From positions 1-60,415 of the forward strand of contig JAVEDP010000037.1 of NCBI GenBank assembly GCA_030841085.1: DNA of 60,415 nucleotides. The letters are read 5' to 3'. A program made the translations under genes and the position numbers. The notes under the pieces are model-generated. The model ran no database searches, was not told the origin of the DNA, and saw only the letters and a program-made list of their open reading frames with translations. The stretch comes from Pyrinomonadaceae bacterium. GTDB taxonomy: Bacteria; Acidobacteriota; Blastocatellia; Pyrinomonadales; Pyrinomonadaceae. Shown here in pieces: positions 9,496-58,902 of this stretch. Position 1 is the first letter of the stretch. Each line of letters opens with the position of its first letter.

Positions 9496-9539
9496 TTGCT
9501 AATTACCAACGACTGATTGGTATCGATTGTATTTCGTGG

Positions 9540-9595
9540 AGTGGCATAGATTTTAGTCTGTGCCGCCAGAGCCACAGACTAAAGTCTATGCCACT
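9540..9595. repeat. CATAGACTTTAGTCTGTG palindrome between MOSC and ydeP-like genes
   Basis: Arms 9540-9562 and 9573-9595 form an almost perfect 23-bp hairpin with a 10-base loop. The right arm ends at the first base of the MOSC stop codon. It is one of four loci of this family in the window. Confidence 0.92.
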
Positions 9596-10098
9596 CAGCG
9601 TAAATCCGCGGCTAATTCGTATTGGCCGGAAGAGGCGTTAGTCAGTTTCACCACTTGCCCAACTTTCAACTTCCCGCCGTGCACCACTCGCGCATAGACG
9701 CGCGACCAGCCCGGATGAAGTTTCTGTTCGATGCGCATAAATTCGCCATCTGCAAAGTAAGCAGGAATCGTGTTGCAAGGCGTCGTGTAGCTGGTGATTT
9801 CCAGCAACACTTCTTCACCGAGGCGCAACTGAACGCCGGGAACCACCTGCCGCCAATCGACTCCCGATACTGTGACGTTCTCGCCCACCGCGCCGGGGAA
9901 AATCGGATGTCCTTCGGCCTGCAGTTGCAGAATCCGTTCCAATGAGAACAAGCACAACGCGCGCTCAGGTCCGCCGTGAATAACGGGAACGCGCTGTACA
10001 TCGCCAACCAGACCCAGTTCGTTGACAGTGCCTTCGCGAACGGCCAGCTTGGGAACACCCCCCGCGGAAACGTTTAGTTGAAATATTCGTCCAGTCAT
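9595..10098 (-). CDS. MOSC domain protein
   Basis: This 167-residue protein is a stand-alone MOSC (MoCo sulfurase C-terminal) domain. GLVGDVQ, HGGPERALCLFS and GENVTVSGVDW are recognisable. The conserved Cys is in PCNTI (about 134). MOSC proteins are thought to bind or carry sulfur for the molybdenum cofactor. Its place just upstream of a YdeP-type molybdoenzyme fits a role in that enzyme's cofactor, which is inference. The gap between the genes is occupied by a palindrome. Confidence 0.9.
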   Translation of the reverse strand: MTGRIFQLNVSAGGVPKLAVREGTVNELGLVGDVQRVPVIHGGPERALCLFSLERILQLQAEGHPIFPGAVGENVTVSGVDWRQVVPGVQLRLGEEVLLEITSYTTPCNTIPAYFADGEFMRIEQKLHPGWSRVYARVVHGGKLKVGQVVKLTNASSGQYELAADLR

Positions 10099-14356: not shown

Positions 14357-15994
14357 ATGATCCTCTTCGACGCGATCTTCAATCAGCAGTCACTTGATAG
14401 AGTCGCCGTGCTTTTTGAGCAACAGCGAATTAGCTACGCTCAGCTAAGGGAACAAACTATTGGCGTCGTGCGCGCGTTGAGCTTTTTGAAAATCGAGCGA
14501 GGAGAGCGGATCGCGTTGTTGTTGCATGACTCGCCTGAGTTCGTCGCGTCATTCATTGCTATCAGTTCGTACGGCGCCATTGCGGTGCCGGTAAATATGG
14601 GCCTGCGGCCCGATGAACAACGAACGATTCTGAACGACTGTGCGGCATCAGTGGCAATCGCTGAGGCGAACCTCTTCGAGGTATTGCTGGTAGACGAAGA
14701 GTTGCCGTCGCTGCGGACCGTCATCATCGTCAGTCGTGGTGAAGAACGCGAGTCCACCACAGAGGCACAGAGAACACAGAGGACGCACAAAGAAGGCGGT
14801 CAAACTTTTGTCTCAAAGAGTGTCCGGCAATTGGACGAACTGCTGGCTGAGTCTGCGTCGCAAGCTACGGTTGCGTTCATTGATCCTGCTGACGACGAAC
14901 CGGCCTGCATCTTCTACACTTCGGGCAGCACCGGCGAGCCCAAAGGCGCAGTGCATCGCCAGGCAGATCTTTTCCACACGAATGAAACGTATTGTCGCGA
15001 GGTTTTGAAACTTCGCCACGGTGACAGGTTGTTTTCCTCTTCGCGTTTGCCTTTCTCTTATGGCTTCGGCAACGCGTTTAGCTTTCCTTTGCTTAACTGC
15101 TGCACCACGATTCTCTGTCGCGAAAAGCCTAATGCGGAAGTTATCAGCCGCGTGTTTGCGCAGTATAAACCAACGATCTTCTTCGGTGTTCCGGTGATTT
15201 ATCGCTTGTTGTTGGACCATTATCGCAACGTCGCGCCGCTCGACTTTTCCAGCTTGCGTCTTTGCGTTTCAGCGGGTGAAGCTTTGCCGGCGCCACTTGG
15301 CGAAGAAATAGAAAGAACTTTCGGCACAGAAGTCCTGGACGGTATCGGCTCGACCGAGATGTTTCATATGTGGATGTCGAACCACGAAGGCGAAGTGCGT
15401 CACGGCAGTAGCGGAAAATTGATCGACGGATACGAGGCGCGCCTATTGGATCCGGAAGGGAATGCGACGCCTTCGGGCGCGGAAGGAAATCTTTGGGTGA
15501 AAGGCGCGAGCGCCGCGCTGGGTTATTGGAACAAGCCAGACGCAACAGCGCTCACCTTCGTCGATGGTTGGGTGCGTACGGGTGATCTTTATCGGCAGGA
15601 CGCAGACGGTTACTGGTTTCATATGGGCCGCAGCGACGATTGTTTCAAATCCAGCGGCCAGTGGGTGTCGCCGGTTGAAGTCGAAGGGGTCTTGTTGAAA
15701 CACGACGGCGTAAATCGCATCGCAGTGGTCGAAGATTTTGATGGCAATGGCTTGCCATGCGCGTGCGCGTTTGTAATCAAAGCAAGCAGCGACGATGACG
15801 ATGCAAAGTTGGAACAACAACTAAACACACTGGCCCGCGAAAAGTTGCCGCGTTTCAAACAGCCGCGCCGGTATGTGTTCGTTGCTGAGTTACCTTACAC
15901 TGCGACGGGGAAGATCCAGCGATTCAAACTGCGCAAGACCGTCCAAAGTCCAATGTCCAAAGTCCAAAGTCCGTTCACCGCAAGCAACGACTAA
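14357..15994 (+). CDS. Acyl/aryl-CoA ligase (AMP-forming), benzoate-CoA-ligase-like
   Basis: This 545-residue ANL-superfamily enzyme activates a carboxylate as acyl-AMP and then the CoA thioester. The P-loop CIFYTSGSTGEPKGAVH is at about 185-200. LPFSYGFGNAFSFPLLN, GIGSTEMFH, GWVRTGDLY and the C-terminal catalytic lysine motif TATGKIQRFKLRK follow. The pattern is closest to the benzoate-CoA ligase group; the substrate is unproven. Two stretches are repeat-derived: STTEAQRTQRTHKE (about 133-146) and the tail TVQSPMSKVQSP, which comes from a heptad repeat. A thioesterase follows on the same strand. Confidence 0.9.
   Translation: MILFDAIFNQQSLDRVAVLFEQQRISYAQLREQTIGVVRALSFLKIERGERIALLLHDSPEFVASFIAISSYGAIAVPVNMGLRPDEQRTILNDCAASVAIAEANLFEVLLVDEELPSLRTVIIVSRGEERESTTEAQRTQRTHKEGGQTFVSKSVRQLDELLAESASQATVAFIDPADDEPACIFYTSGSTGEPKGAVHRQADLFHTNETYCREVLKLRHGDRLFSSSRLPFSYGFGNAFSFPLLNCCTTILCREKPNAEVISRVFAQYKPTIFFGVPVIYRLLLDHYRNVAPLDFSSLRLCVSAGEALPAPLGEEIERTFGTEVLDGIGSTEMFHMWMSNHEGEVRHGSSGKLIDGYEARLLDPEGNATPSGAEGNLWVKGASAALGYWNKPDATALTFVDGWVRTGDLYRQDADGYWFHMGRSDDCFKSSGQWVSPVEVEGVLLKHDGVNRIAVVEDFDGNGLPCACAFVIKASSDDDDAKLEQQLNTLAREKLPRFKQPRRYVFVAELPYTATGKIQRFKLRKTVQSPMSKVQSPFTASND
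14748..14800 (+). repeat. Dispersed 9-bp-unit repeat inserted in frame in the CoA ligase
   Basis: The segment with CCACAGAGGCACAGAGAAC and onward is a 9-bp-periodic repeat. It is inverted with respect to 18500-18540. It adds about 14 residues to a loop between the N-terminal region and the P-loop without breaking the frame. Confidence 0.75.
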
Positions 15995-16088
15995 TCATGA
16001 GAACCTGGCCTTGTGCTTCAATTTTCGACTGGGCCTTATAATATTGGCGGCCCGGACATTGGACTTTGGACATTGGACTTTGGACTCT
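15939..16088. repeat. GTCCAAA heptad inverted repeat at the ligase-thioesterase junction
   Basis: Arm 15939-15973 consists of GTCCAAA/GTCCAAT units and is translated as the ligase C-terminus. Arm 16053-16088 is its inverted copy (TTTGGAC/ATTGGAC) and ends 4 bases before the thioesterase ATG, where a ribosome-binding site would be expected. Confidence 0.9.
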
Positions 16089-16092
16089 TAAC

Positions 16093-16551
16093 ATGAAAAG
16101 CATCCAGGAAACATACGCGCCCAACAACGCATGTTTTGGTTGCGGTCCGGCAAACGAAAAGGGGCTGCACATTCGCAGCTTTCCGCAGGGCGACGAAGTC
16201 GTCGCTGAATTTCAGCCCGAGACTTATCAGGAAGCATTTCCCGGAATGCTCAGCGGCGGCATCATTGGCACGCTGCTCGACTGTCATTGCAACTGGACCG
16301 CTGCCTATCATTTGATGAAAAGCACTGGCGCCGATCATCCGCCCTGCACCGTCACCGCTGATTACAAAATTACCTTGCGACGGCCGACGCCCACGGATCA
16401 ACCGGTGCGGCTGGTCGCGCGAGTGGTTGAATCGAGCGAGGATCGTGCGGTCGTTGAAGGCGAGTTGATCGCGCACGATAAGGTCACGGCAACCTGTCGC
16501 GGAACGTTCGTCGCGGTGAAGCCCGGCCATCCCGCCTATCATCGCTGGTAA
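16093..16551 (+). CDS. PaaI-like hotdog-fold thioesterase
   Basis: This 152-residue protein opens with a Cys pair (NACFGCGPANEKGLHI). The hotdog helix GMLSGGIIGTLLDCHCNWTA (about 50-69) and the strand TADYKITLRRPTPTDQPV are typical of 4HBT/PaaI acyl-CoA thioesterases. ATG 16093 gives the expected N-terminus; the upstream frame only translates the repeat. There is no clear Shine-Dalgarno. The final codons YHRW and the stop lie in a 14-bp sequence repeated 103 bases downstream. It is probably paired functionally with the CoA ligase, which is inference. Confidence 0.88.
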   Translation: MKSIQETYAPNNACFGCGPANEKGLHIRSFPQGDEVVAEFQPETYQEAFPGMLSGGIIGTLLDCHCNWTAAYHLMKSTGADHPPCTVTADYKITLRRPTPTDQPVRLVARVVESSEDRAVVEGELIAHDKVTATCRGTFVAVKPGHPAYHRW

Positions 16552-16653
16552 GTAGGACGGGCATTCCTGCCTGTCCTCTTTTCTTTGACGAGCGGGGTCG
16601 AATGGAAAGGAATGGACAGACAAGAATGTCTATCCTACTTATCATCGCTGGTA
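16537..16653. mobile_element. 89-bp palindromic element with 14-bp flanking direct repeats
   Basis: TATCATCGCTGGTA occurs at 16537-16550 and again at 16640-16653. Between them lie exactly 89 bases that begin AGTAGGA and end TCCTACT. The 26-bp arms match at 20 positions, and the six differences are all transitions. The first direct repeat is the 3' end of the thioesterase gene. This is the structure left by insertion of a miniature palindromic element with target duplication at the stop codon. No transposase is encoded. Confidence 0.8.
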
Positions 16654-16658
16654 GTTTC

Positions 16659-16750
16659 GTAGCATAGACTTTAGTCTGTGCTTTGATAGGTAAAAAAACA
16701 TATACAAAGTTACTTGTTTCCAGACGAACGCAGACTGAAGTCTATGCTAC
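16659..16750. repeat. CATAGACTTTAGTCTGTG inverted repeat before hemB
   Basis: Arm 16659-16681 and inverted arm 16730-16750 flank a 48-base AT-rich loop. The right arm ends 9 bases before the hemB ATG and there is no evident Shine-Dalgarno in between. Confidence 0.9.
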
Positions 16751-16759
16751 TTTAATCGC

Positions 16760-17731
16760 ATGCCGGATCTAACTCATCGACCTCGTCGGCTCAGAAGGAC
16801 CGAAGCCCTCCGTTCGCTGGTCCGCGAAACGCGCCTGGCGCGTGAAGATTTCATACTTCCCTTGTTCGCCTGCACCGGCACAAAAGTTCGGCGCGAAATT
16901 AAATCAATGCCCGGCGTCTGCAACCTGTCTGTTGATGAGATTGCCAACGAGGCAGCAGCGGCATTCGACGCCGGAGTAAAAGGAATAATGCTGTTTGGTC
17001 TGCCGGAAACAAAAGATGAGACGGCCAGCGGCGCCTATAACGAAGATGGCATCGTGCAACAGGCCATTCGCGCAATAAAGAAATCGGCGCCGGATTTAAT
17101 CGTCATGGCCGACACTTGTCTTTGCGAATACACTTCGCACGGTCACTGCGGCGTGGTGCGTGACGGCGAAGTCATCAACGACGAGTCGCTCGAGTTGCTC
17201 GCGCAAACAGCGGTCAGCCAAGCCGCAGCCGGCGCTGACTTAGTCGCGCCCTCAGCGATGATGGATGGCCAAGTTGGCGCGATTCGCGAAGCGCTGGATG
17301 AAGCGGGCTTTGATCAAATTCCGATCATGGCTTACGCCGTCAAGTATGCTTCGGCTTTGTATGGTCCATTTCGGGAGGCCGCCGACAGCGCGCCTGCGTT
17401 TGGCGATCGTCGCGCTTATCAGATGGATGCGCCTAACGCTCGCGAGGCGATGCATGAGGCGGAGCTGGATTACCTCGAAGGCGCCGACATTTTGATGGTC
17501 AAGCCGGCGACGATTTATCTCGACGTGCTGAAAACGATGCGCGAAGAATTCGATGTGCCGCTGGCTGCATACCATGTCTCCGGCGAGTACGCGATGATAA
17601 AAGCGGCGGCGCAAAACGGTTGGATTGATGAGCAGCGCGTCATGATGGAAACGTTGACGAGCATCAAACGCGCGGGCGCCGACATTATTCTCACCTACTA
17701 CGCTCGCGAAGCGATCAAGGCCCTGGGATAG
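16760..17731 (+). CDS. hemB: Porphobilinogen synthase (delta-aminolevulinate dehydratase)
   Basis: The 323-residue enzyme condenses two 5-aminolevulinate molecules to porphobilinogen in tetrapyrrole synthesis. The zinc-type cysteine motif [14 protein letters not shown] (about 115-128) is complete, so a Zn-dependent enzyme is expected. The two active-site lysines lie in [17 protein letters not shown] and [10 protein letters not shown], and [13 protein letters not shown] is conserved. It seems to stand alone; its upstream region is a palindrome rather than a normal leader. Confidence 0.97.
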
Positions 17732-39828: not shown

Positions 39829-40575
39829 TTAAGAATAAATATTCATTGGTCTTGTCAGTAACTCAACCGGGTCATCCACATTCAAAGCCTCGCGCACATA
39901 AAAAGGCTCGCCTGCCGCAACGCCGATCAACGATCCAAAATAGCGCATGCGCAATTCAATCTGATCGAGAAACGCCGGGTCACTAATGCGCGTCGCCGGT
40001 TCGTTTGATTCCGCCTGGTAAAACTGCGAAGCGTGTGCGCGGATCGCGGCCATCTTTTCCTCAACAAATTCCGAGACATCCACAATAAACGACGGCACTA
40101 CGCGCCGCGAAAAAAGTGAATGCATCAGCGCCGGCATGCGCACGGCATTTTGTTTTCCCTCTTCGTCGTAGCGCGCCATGGTTCCCAGCCGCGCGGCCTC
40201 GCGCACAATGTGACAGGTGTTGGCATGATCCGGATGCGGATCGTCCCAGTGCGTAGTGAGCAAGACTTTCGGCGCGTGTGAACGCAGCACCCGCACCACC
40301 GCCGTGCGCGCCGCTTCAGTGGGCCACACATGTCCATCGGGTTGGCCCAGGTTAAGGCGTACATCCAACTTCAAGATGCGTGCCGCCTCTGCCGCCTCTT
40401 GCTCACGCGTTTCCGCAGTGCCACGCGTGCCCATCTCGCCACGCGTCATGTCCAGCACGCCAGTGCGATAGCCTTGCGACTTTAGTTTGAGAAGAGTTCC
40501 CGCCACAGAAAGCTCTGCATCATCCGGGTGCGAGAAAACGGCCAGCACGTCCAACTCGGTTTGCGCATCGCTCAT
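39829..40575 (-). CDS. bshB1: Bacillithiol biosynthesis deacetylase
   Basis: The 248-residue LmbE/PIG-L family deacetylase removes acetyl from GlcNAc-malate. The zinc and catalytic motif HPDDAEL is at 16-22, and later DDPHPDHANT (about 121-130) supplies the third ligand. RGEMGTRGTAETREQEA and LNLGQPDGHV are typical of the BshB1 subgroup. It is the partner of bshA. Confidence 0.94.
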   Translation of the reverse strand: MSDAQTELDVLAVFSHPDDAELSVAGTLLKLKSQGYRTGVLDMTRGEMGTRGTAETREQEAAEAARILKLDVRLNLGQPDGHVWPTEAARTAVVRVLRSHAPKVLLTTHWDDPHPDHANTCHIVREAARLGTMARYDEEGKQNAVRMPALMHSLFSRRVVPSFIVDVSEFVEEKMAAIRAHASQFYQAESNEPATRISDPAFLDQIELRMRYFGSLIGVAAGEPFYVREALNVDDPVELLTRPMNIYS

Positions 40576-56277: not shown

Positions 56278-58815
56278 CTACCCAACCGGCGCAGTCTTTT
56301 TCGGTTTGGATTTTGTTTTTGCTTTAGGCGCTTCGCTTACTTCGGACTCATTCGAGCGATAACCGCAATCGGCGTTGCCGCAGTAGCGAAACGTGCCTTG
56401 CTTCTTGGTGGTCTTCTCGAGCAGAAACGGCTCATTGCACTTCGGACACGCCTCCAGCACCGGCTTGTCCCAATAAACTCGATCGCAATCCGGATAAGCC
56501 GAGCAACCGTAGAACACTTTGCCGCGCTTTGATTTTTTTACTACAAGATCGCCCTTGCAACCCGGCCGCGAACACTTAACACCGGTCAGTTCCTGCTTGA
56601 TGTATTTGCACTTCGGATAATTTGAGCAGGAAACGAACTCGCCGAAACGTCCGAAGCGCCGCACCAGTTGCGCGTCATCAAGCGGACACTTCTCATCAAG
56701 CGGTACCGGCGCCGGCGCGGCCACTCCGCTCTTGGCAATCTTTCGAATGTTGCGGCACTCGGGATAACCGGTGCAGCCGAGGAATGGACCAAAGCGGCCA
56801 CGCTTCATCTGCATCGGTTTGTCGCAGAGTTCGCAAACTTCCGGCTCCGCGGTTTCGGCACCGCCGGTGGTTGAATCTTTTTCACCGCCGTTGGTGGCAG
56901 CCTTGGGTTCCGCGTCGCGGGTCGCCCCGCAATTCAAACACTTGAGATACTTACCAAAGCGGCCGCGCTTCCGCACCATGCCCTTCGTCTCACATTTGAG
57001 ACAGACCTCGTCGGTCGGTATCTCCTCGTTCTTAATGCGCCCGGTGTATTCGGTGAAGAGGACCAGGTCTTTCGAGAACTTGTCGTAGAACTCATGCAGC
57101 GCATCCGTCCATTTGAGTTTGCCTTCCTCAACGTTGTCCAGTTCTTCTTCCATTCGCGCGGTGTAGGTCTCATTAAAGAGATCCGCGAAACCGCCTTCGA
57201 TCAGCAGGTCGTTGACTGTCTTGCCTAACTCTGTCGGATGAAAACGCCCTTCGAGTTTCTCAACGTACTCACGCGCCAGAATCGTCGTCATGATCGCCGC
57301 ATAAGTTGACGGCCGGCCGATACCCTTTTCTTCCAGGGCTTTTACGAGGGTAGCTTCCGTAAAGCGCGGCGGCGGATCCGTAAAATGTTGCTCCGGCGTG
57401 AGCTTGTTGAGCGCGAGCGTCTCGCCCTTTTCGACCGGCGGCAGCGTGCGCTCGGCCTCCTCATCTTCTTCGGTCTTCTCGTCGCGGCCCTCCTGATAAA
57501 GTTTCAGGAAGCCGTCAAACTTCTGCACCGAACCCGTCGCGCGGAATATGAAACGCCCGGCGGCAATATCGATCGTGGTCTGATCAAACAGCGCGGGTGT
57601 CATTTGCGAAGCAACCGAACGCTGCCAGATCAAGCGATAGAGCCGCAGCTCGTCATTATTCAAATAACTTGCGAGCGAATCAGGCGTACGCGTCACATCG
57701 GTAGGACGAATCGCTTCGTGGGCATCCTGCGCGTCCTTTTTCGAGCGATAGTGAATCGCCTTTTCCGGCAAGTACGGGGCGCCATACTGTTTGCTGATGA
57801 AATCGCGCACTTCACTGAGCGCCGCATCAGACACACGAGTCGAGTCGGTTCGCATATAGGTAATCAACCCGACGGAACCTTCCGCGCCAATCTCGATACC
57901 TTCGTAAAGTTTCTGCGCAATCATCATCGTGCGCTTGACGGCCCAGCCGAGTTTGCGCGCGGCCTCTTGCTGTAACTTTGAAGTAATGAATGGTGGTACC
58001 GGGTTGCGCTTGCGCTCTTTCCGGGTTACTTCGCTAACAACGAACGTTTGCTGGTTTGCTTCAGCTACGAGGTCGGATGCGAGGGCTTCGTCGTTGATAA
58101 GAATTTCGCTGCGCTTGATGTCCTGATCGAACCCGCCAGTCTTGACTGTCTGTTCGCCAACCTTGAACAACCGGGCGTCAAACGCTGGGGGAAGTTTGGC
58201 GCCGAGATTTGCGAGTATGGTCCAATACTCCGTCTTGACGAACTTTTCGATTTCGCGTTCGCGCTCGACCACCATTCTCAACGCAACTGACTGCACGCGG
58301 CCGGCACTTAGCTTTCCTCCGACAGTGCGACAAAGAAGCGGCGACACCTTGTAACCAACCAAACGATCGAGCACGCGACGCGCTTGTTGCGAGTCGACCA
58401 GGTTTTGGTCAATTTGTTTCGGGTGCTCGAAAGCTTCATTGACCGCGCGCTTGGTGATCTCATTAAACATCACGCGAAACGTGGCTTTCGCGGGTCGCTT
58501 GGGAACAATCTCTTCTGCCAGGTGCTGGCAAATTGCTTCGCCTTCCCTGTCCGGGTCAGCGGCAAAATAAATCGTGTCCGCGATTTTTGCGGCGGCTTTC
58601 AGCTCCGCAACGATCCTTTTGTTGTTACGCTTTTTGGTATCGGGAATTACTTCGTAAGTGGGTTTGAAGTCGTCATCAACATCAACGCCCAAACCTTTGG
58701 AAGGCAGATCTTTTATGTGGCCTATCGAGGCCTTAACCAGATAGTCCTTTCCCAAATATTTGTTTATGGTTTTCGCCTTGGCCGGCGATTCAACTATGAC
58801 TAAATTTTTTGCCAT
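56278..58815 (-). CDS. topA: DNA topoisomerase I
   Basis: This type IA topoisomerase (845 residues) relaxes negative supercoils. The TOPRIM domain starts KNLVIVESPAKAKTI and contains AADPDREGEAI. The active-site tyrosine is in GLITYMRTDSTR. Five C-terminal four-cysteine zinc ribbons follow (first CLKCETKG...CLNC, last CPKCNEPF...CGNADC), then a lysine-rich tail. ATG 58815 starts the canonical MAKNLVIVES; the longer frame only reads the palindrome. No Shine-Dalgarno is visible because the palindrome begins 4 bases upstream. It follows dprA, a common arrangement. Confidence 0.97.
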   Translation of the reverse strand: MAKNLVIVESPAKAKTINKYLGKDYLVKASIGHIKDLPSKGLGVDVDDDFKPTYEVIPDTKKRNNKRIVAELKAAAKIADTIYFAADPDREGEAICQHLAEEIVPKRPAKATFRVMFNEITKRAVNEAFEHPKQIDQNLVDSQQARRVLDRLVGYKVSPLLCRTVGGKLSAGRVQSVALRMVVEREREIEKFVKTEYWTILANLGAKLPPAFDARLFKVGEQTVKTGGFDQDIKRSEILINDEALASDLVAEANQQTFVVSEVTRKERKRNPVPPFITSKLQQEAARKLGWAVKRTMMIAQKLYEGIEIGAEGSVGLITYMRTDSTRVSDAALSEVRDFISKQYGAPYLPEKAIHYRSKKDAQDAHEAIRPTDVTRTPDSLASYLNNDELRLYRLIWQRSVASQMTPALFDQTTIDIAAGRFIFRATGSVQKFDGFLKLYQEGRDEKTEEDEEAERTLPPVEKGETLALNKLTPEQHFTDPPPRFTEATLVKALEEKGIGRPSTYAAIMTTILAREYVEKLEGRFHPTELGKTVNDLLIEGGFADLFNETYTARMEEELDNVEEGKLKWTDALHEFYDKFSKDLVLFTEYTGRIKNEEIPTDEVCLKCETKGMVRKRGRFGKYLKCLNCGATRDAEPKAATNGGEKDSTTGGAETAEPEVCELCDKPMQMKRGRFGPFLGCTGYPECRNIRKIAKSGVAAPAPVPLDEKCPLDDAQLVRRFGRFGEFVSCSNYPKCKYIKQELTGVKCSRPGCKGDLVVKKSKRGKVFYGCSAYPDCDRVYWDKPVLEACPKCNEPFLLEKTTKKQGTFRYCGNADCGYRSNESEVSEAPKAKTKSKPKKTAPVG

Positions 58816-58819
58816 TATT

Positions 58820-58902
58820 AGTGGAACAGACTTTAGTCTGTGGCTTTTCTTTCTTCCAACATATCCCAATCGCGACTGCACACCGACTAAAGTCTGTGCT
58901 AC
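58820..58902. repeat. CATAGACTTTAGTCTGTG-family inverted repeat between dprA and topA
   Basis: Arm 58820-58844 and inverted arm 58880-58902 enclose a 35-base loop. One end abuts the dprA stop codon and the other lies 4 bases from the topA ATG. Confidence 0.93.

Follow-up and report, generated by a model that had tools for sequence, protein, structure and literature searches.

The locus at the thioesterase stop codon

The window, by which is meant the whole stretch of 60,415 nucleotides that was analysed, is the whole of contig C10 in the assembly of a Pyrinomonadaceae bacterium (Acidobacteriota, Blastocatellia; genome G000; 4.69 Mb, 43 contigs). It includes a gene for a 4HBT/hotdog thioesterase, whose ATG start probably lies at 16093 and whose TAA stop codon occupies 16549-16551, followed downstream by hemB (Table 1). 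The last codons of the thioesterase gene and the TA of its TAA form a 14-mer, TATCATCGCTGGTA, that recurs 103 bp on, start to start, and the final A of the stop codon is the first of the 89 bases that separate the two copies, which begin AGTAGGA and end TCCTACT. The original prediction had described just this arrangement, an imperfect palindrome between direct repeats made of the last residues of the enzyme and most of its stop codon, and its description holds. The right copy is followed by G, which gives the TAG context found in the sister species G011. The insertion was probably harmless, the reading frame keeping its last residues and gaining a TAA stop from the leading A of the element.

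Table 1. Features at the thioesterase-hemB junction and the tandem array on contig C9
Feature	Coordinates	Strand	Basis or remark
4HBT/hotdog thioesterase gene	16066..16551	+	open reading frame; PF03061 27.2 bits (cut-off 20.6); orthologues
Left copy of 14-bp direct repeat, TATCATCGCTGGTA	16537..16550	+	
89-bp REPIN: A + GTAGGA unit, spacer, inverted unit + T	16551..16639		
REP unit 1, GTAGGACGGGCATTCCTGCCTGTCC	16552..16576	+	one change from the main consensus
REP unit 2, minus-strand reading GTAGGATAGACATTCTTGTCTGTCC	16614..16638	-	another subfamily of the GTAGGA unit
Right copy of 14-bp direct repeat, TATCATCGCTGGTA	16640..16653	+	
Second palindrome, another GTAG-headed family (GTAGCATAGACTTTAGTCTG...)	16659..16750		directly downstream
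hemB (porphobilinogen synthase), next gene	16760..17731	+	NF006762 507.7 bits
Seven tandem units (one with GTAGCA), spacing 30-33 bp	L068:2123-2329 = C9:95176-95382		beside the RAYT gene

In the 4.69-Mb genome the 14-mer has two exact matches, both at this locus, and two further places match it with one mismatch; the idea that it is a piece of a repeated module was rejected on these counts. Among 139 pairs of direct repeats in the window (at least 9 bp long, within 420 bp), only the pair at this locus encloses a palindrome with at least 16 of 22 arm positions matched, and ten mononucleotide shuffles of the window gave no palindrome between direct repeats. The arrangement of repeat, palindrome and repeat thus exceeds chance. 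A wider scan for palindromes between direct repeats, covering the window, contig C80 of G011 and 614,150 (redundant) bases of loci, found, apart from this locus, a REP array (L018) and a palindrome of another family with 9-bp repeats (L022).

Folded as single-stranded DNA the element gives a z-score of -4.3. Its 26-nt arms differ at five places (element positions 8, 9, 11, 17 and 20), all of them transitions, as the original prediction had said, although it had counted six. The five mismatches are accounted for by each arm being a small palindrome by itself in the DNA fold, the first arm alone forming 10 pairs: positions 11 and 20 pair together, as G-C in one arm and A-T in the other, positions 8 and 9 switch between Watson-Crick and wobble pairing, and position 17 lies in the loop. 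The transitions are subfamily differences of the repeated unit, two of them making up a compensated pair in its stem. The 14-mer is itself self-complementary at 10 of 14 positions, so that the inverted repeat extends to 41 nt through it.

A dispersed family of GTAGGA units

The 89-bp palindrome is a head-out pair of GTAG-tagged REP units, in other words a REPIN. The unit has the consensus GTAGGACAGGCATTCCTGCCTGTCC, or GTAGGA(C/T)AG(G/A)CATTC(C/T)TG(C/T)CTGTCC with its variable positions, and occurs 152 times in the genome at no more than two mismatches (75 forward, 77 reverse), against no occurrence of the reversed pattern at the same threshold. A search of the same genome with the 89 bases themselves returned 48 matches, most of them to one arm only. 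The features by which REP elements are recognised are present: the consensus unit and its hairpin show a short palindrome with GTAG (GT[AG]G) at its foot, the copy number exceeds 100 per genome, and 38 head-out pairs able to form a hairpin lie in the loci retrieved from this genome, where units also stand singly or in tandem arrays. The units are mostly extragenic and avoid open frames. By a test based on open frames alone, without gene calls, 33 of 125 units fell inside frames of at least 600 nt, compared with 404 of 600 positions drawn at random from these loci, the figures for frames of 300-600 nt being 25 of 125 and 88 of 600. At one place (L103:1501-1577; C12, about 236494) a GTAGGA pair appears by eye to lie within a coding frame, and G011 has 57 different bases there. 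The base at position -1 of the unit is A in 50% of 109 flanks compared with 23% in the background, in agreement with the A and T that form the outer bases of the 89-bp element, and 19 of the 109 flanks end in a stop triplet where about 5 would be expected (3/64).

Within the genus the GTAGGA unit was found in four of the 15 other genomes (132, 102, 24 and 3 copies) and was absent from 11 of the 16 genomes overall. This is a known kind of element, an ordinary REPIN, with a unit sequence of its own and from a lineage that has been little studied. It shares with the REPINs and BIMEs that accompany a RAYT (REP-associated tyrosine transposase, or TnpA-REP) in the REPtron arrangement palindromic units of about 25 nt that bear a GTAG tag, inverted pairing, a copy number above 100, a position mostly outside long open frames and an HUH transposase gene flanked by units on both sides, and differs from them in unit sequence and in the 14-bp duplication flanking the present copy. 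The accessible portion of PMC3733652 describes a GTAG superfamily of REPs that often provide the TAG stop of flanking open reading frames. The likeness of the present family to it consists in the GTAG head, in TAG stops supplied by REP ends (here in G014) and in REP-flanked transposase genes.

The candidate transposase

The genome contains 15 matches to the Y1_Tnp domain, and the gene on contig C9 (G000:C9:94491-95030, minus strand) is one that lies among GTAGGA units. Its 180-residue product scores 80 bits against NF047646 (REP-associated tyrosine transposase), a borderline value equal to the cut-off of 80, and 35.5 bits against PF01797, and it carries the motifs NHVH, WQ and YIERNP. These resemble, although not letter for letter, the motifs that the available part of PMC6006769 gives for class 2 subclass 2.7 ([ND]HVH, WQ, YI[LR][NQ]NP). 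One GTAGGA unit lies 16 nt past the stop codon, and directly upstream of the start come a degenerate unit, an intact unit and then the run of seven in tandem. Units of the GTAGCATAGACTTTAGTCTG type, the family of the second palindrome in Table 1, also occur near other Y1 transposase genes (L066, L072, L073, L074).

From this gene context, the C9 RAYT probably moves the GTAGGA REPINs. A relative 73% identical to it is found in G014, a genome of the same genus (C5:503987-504520), likewise between units (503892, 503952, 504521 and 504630). In G005, which has 102 units, the best match is a unit-flanked fragment (66% over 38 residues; C81:9505-9618), and the best match in G011, which has 24 units, is 42% identical; as neither genome has an intact close relative, only two genomes support the pairing of unit and enzyme. 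G012 has a relative at 53% yet no GTAGGA units. A second Y1 gene of the own genome, on C41 (L064), has a pair of GTAGGA units within 1.1 kb, so the assignment to C9 is the better supported but not the sole possibility. By analogy with the E. coli, Stenotrophomonas and Marinomonas enzymes, for which the accessible text of PMC8266576 reports binding and cleavage of the single-stranded unit, the C9 protein is a putative binder and cleaver of the single-stranded GTAGGA unit. The domain is related to that of the IS200/IS605 elements (HUH Y1; PF01797), which also have hairpin ends; the present family differs in being no autonomous insertion sequence but a set of short hairpins dispersed away from the gene.

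Orthologous junctions

Twenty-nine orthologues of the thioesterase were examined, the present one included, a match in L059 (30% identity) and a second weak match in G007 having been left out. In the 28 others no second 14-mer (at most one mismatch) lies within 600 nt of the stop codon, the sequences of G006 and G013 spanning less than 70 nt downstream. In the sister species G011, whose thioesterase is 96% identical, TATCATCGCTGGTAG occurs once with a TAG stop, and no GTAGGA element is present at that stop; the order there is CCCGCTTATCATCGCTGGTAG, a pair of another family (GTAAAGCAAACTG...) and hemB. This is the empty site with a single 14-mer whose existence the original prediction had put forward as a check, and it joins the 152 dispersed units in bearing out the view that the palindrome is a mobile or formerly mobile unit. 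In G004 the distance from TATCATCGCTGGTAG to hemB is less than 20 bases. Of the 12 other members of the genus that were tabulated, 7 have TAG as the thioesterase stop, which is therefore probably ancestral; the right copy of the repeat retains this context and the left copy has TAA. On sequence comparison, the orthologues thus support an insertion here with a gain of about 103 bases, which comprise the element plus a single 14-mer, and as many as 16 bases could have been copied if the ancestral preceding base was T, as it is in G011.

The history of the junction may, however, exceed one insertion. In G014 a GTAGGA unit starts within the same stop codon (CTG-GTAGGACAGG), with its inverted partner some 250 bases farther along. 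In G005 the TGA is directly followed by a degenerate unit (GTAGGAAAGCATTGCTGCC) that was recognised by eye and fell short of the script threshold. Either insertion at this stop codon has been recurrent or G011 has lost an older element, and recurrence at a stop codon is not very surprising given the stop triplets that close 19 of the 109 unit flanks.

Occupied and empty sites were compared with G011 at 22 further places, 15 of which could be aligned; the others had hits on both sides with about 810 bp between them (L115), sides on different contigs (L075, L079), one side only (L027, L114, L122) or no hit (L113). Judged by eye, one aligned site (L016/L259) is a perfectly clean empty site (TTTGTAG/AAATGG, the slash marking the join): it shows two extra bases, TA, and no duplication, unlike the present locus with its 14-bp repeat. 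By the same inspection, G011 retains sequence resembling this REP family at about five of the 15 (L003, L005, L017, L082, L117), and the remainder have other, partly palindromic DNA there and give no clean junction.

Flanking duplications across the family

The flanks of the units were tested in 90 loci of the own genome, covering about 121 of the 152 units, and in 25 loci from sister species, of which four were sampled and three yielded pairs. When exact repeats were counted, the present copy stood out among the 38 own head-out pairs, some of which share ends in arrays, with 14 bp; the others had 0-4 bp, and re-paired flanks mostly gave 0-4 with a maximum of 7. None of the 11 pairs in the sister species had a flanking duplication, no value there exceeding 3. 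A test that tolerated mismatches, applied to 43 isolated pairs from four species (33 own, 6 from G014, 2 from G011 and 2 from G005), again had this copy as its one outlier, with a score of 14 followed by 3.5. The mean over the other 42 was 0.65 compared with 0.73 for re-paired flanks, whose maximum over 300 rounds was 7.5.

The 14-bp duplication is real, local and unusual, and not a property of the GTAGGA family in this sample. Old duplications could have decayed past recognition, so that their absence speaks mainly for the younger copies. The original prediction was right that the duplication belongs to this locus; as a mode of insertion of the family it found no support in the sample, and the search for flanking repeats around related palindromes that it proposed came out against it (absent in 37 of 38 own, 11 of 11 sister-species and 42 of 43 isolated pairs). 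Its comparison of the 14 bp with the duplications made by insertion sequence families was misplaced, given this result and the HUH/Y1 enzyme of the RAYT kind.

Origin of the direct repeat

The account that probably applies is that a REPIN, a non-autonomous hairpin element spread round the genome by a RAYT, would have entered at the thioesterase stop codon (ancestrally ...CTGGTAG), with 14 target bases, or 14-16 depending on one ancestral base, being copied once more at insertion. The family, its copy number, the RAYT with units on both sides and the absence of the element from the sister-species stop can be read from sequence, and the RAYT would move the REPIN as single-stranded DNA, normally without target duplication. 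According to the accessible part of PMC8266576, RAYTs act on single-stranded REPs and GTAG serves in recognition and, for one enzyme, in the choice of the cut, and IS200/IS605 elements as a rule make no larger target duplications (PMC2817692, as far as its accessible text goes); the duplication is for these reasons taken as an accident of insertion or later repair. The simplest cause would be repair of the insertion intermediate over some 14 nt, with a 14-nt staggered break being filled in or the template switching back to where the 14-mer begins. The target is quasi-palindromic (10 of 14 positions), a degree of symmetry estimated for about 1 in 80 random 14-mers, which might help a stagger, but a single case proves nothing, and as no other sampled pair is duplicated, duplication at insertion rests on one copy. 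In the accessible portion of the open-access literature we found no statement that REPINs make target duplications.

A single event is simpler than two, and the possible but rather doubtful alternative that the REPIN arrived at the stop codon first, and that a template switch or unequal recombination with an empty-site chromosome (TATCATCGCTGGTAG...) later rejoined its right end to where the 14-mer begins, requires two separate events at the same place. It would explain why the right copy bears the ancestral-like TAG context and the left copy the gene, and it gains from the CT that precedes the right copy as it precedes the 14-mer in G011 (GCTTATC), a microhomology of two bases; yet the base before the present left copy is C, so that the microhomology depends on an ancestral T, and no intermediate was found among the 28 other orthologues. 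REP units with short flanks are often tandem, as are 21 same-orientation neighbours less than 60 bp apart in the own loci, and for P. fluorescens SBW25 the accessible part of PMC3116915 describes REPIN clusters in tandem that take in flanking sequence. Short tandem duplications commonly arise by slippage, and a 14-bp duplication might have come before the REPIN, but the repeats would then adjoin the element on both sides only if it had hit the exact junction, and with a second 14-mer in none of the 28 other orthologues this order of events is decidedly improbable. Assembly is disturbed by palindromes and repeats; nevertheless the two copies stand in different, sensible contexts (TAA with the element, TAG with TTTC), the window is collinear with contig C80 of G011 on both sides and exact copies of the 14-mer occur nowhere else in the genome, all of which makes an artefact scarcely credible.

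Two further readings would make the duplication part of the transposition mechanism. This copy, and no other, has the textbook anatomy of a classical MITE moved by a DDE transposase, with AGTAGGA... as its terminal inverted repeats and a target duplication of 14 bp as its hallmark; like bacterial MITEs it is short and has inverted repeats and a direct repeat, at a partly two-fold symmetric target (10 of 14). A duplication of constant length at most copies was, however, not found (1 of 38, 0 of 11 and 1 of 43 pairs); even with mismatches allowed, 42 of 43 isolated pairs do not exceed the level of re-paired flanks. The units also occur singly and in tandem, unlike a two-ended MITE, the gene among them encodes an HUH/Y1 transposase and the clean site L016/L259 has no duplication, so that this origin is very unlikely. 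It is somewhat easier to imagine, though still unlikely, that RAYT-driven insertion itself makes long exact duplications at a foldable target, with strand breaks 14 nt apart on opposite strands of the quasi-palindromic stop-codon target. Both joins read 5'-GRTA/AGTAGGA, the target TATCA-TCGC-TGGTA could form a 5-bp stem with a 4-nt loop, and this two-strand reading leans as well on the GTAGGA unit that G014, and probably G005 too, has at this stop codon. If it were true, REPIN insertion would be a two-strand process at hairpin-forming stop codons and not a purely single-stranded, IS200-like one.

Cleavage between C and T, reported for E. coli TnpA-REP in the accessible part of PMC8266576, was considered and not pressed. 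An ancestral T, the base found in G011, would make the right join CCTAC/TTATC fit it. At the clean site L016, however, no such C/T stands at the join, and the same portion of that source has the E. coli enzyme recognising the REP strand and not the inverted REP, which counts against such cleavage at the right join.

Other palindromes in the genome

The window contains 47 inverted-repeat pairs with arms of at least 18 nt, and several gaps between gene blocks aligned with G011 (for example 15941-16085, 16551-16750, 9532-9603 and 58815-58899) hold an unrelated palindrome in that species, such as GTCCAAAGTCCAATG repeats here and AAGTTTCAAGTTTC repeats there. Palindrome turnover at these junctions seems fast.

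A low-copy family, GTAGTGATGC...GCATCACTACC, has 6 units in the own genome at up to three mismatches. One copy (L022:2463-2556; C41:131812-131905) is flanked by a 9-bp direct repeat, AAATTAACA, and the stretch of G011 between the corresponding flanks is other DNA without AAATTAACA. By eye, a second copy with a degenerate left end (L300; C11, about 40368-40492) has an 8-bp repeat, AATTTTCA, and a third pair (L294) has no flanking repeat. This family is a possible target-duplicating MITE and looks more like a true duplication-maker than the GTAGGA family does.

Implications

A single flanking repeat is a poor guide to the transposition signature of a family. Four species of the genus, the present one among them, have 152, 132, 102 and 24 GTAGGA units, and occupancy differs at the sites compared with G011, so that comparisons of occupied and empty sites can yield the footprints of its insertion.
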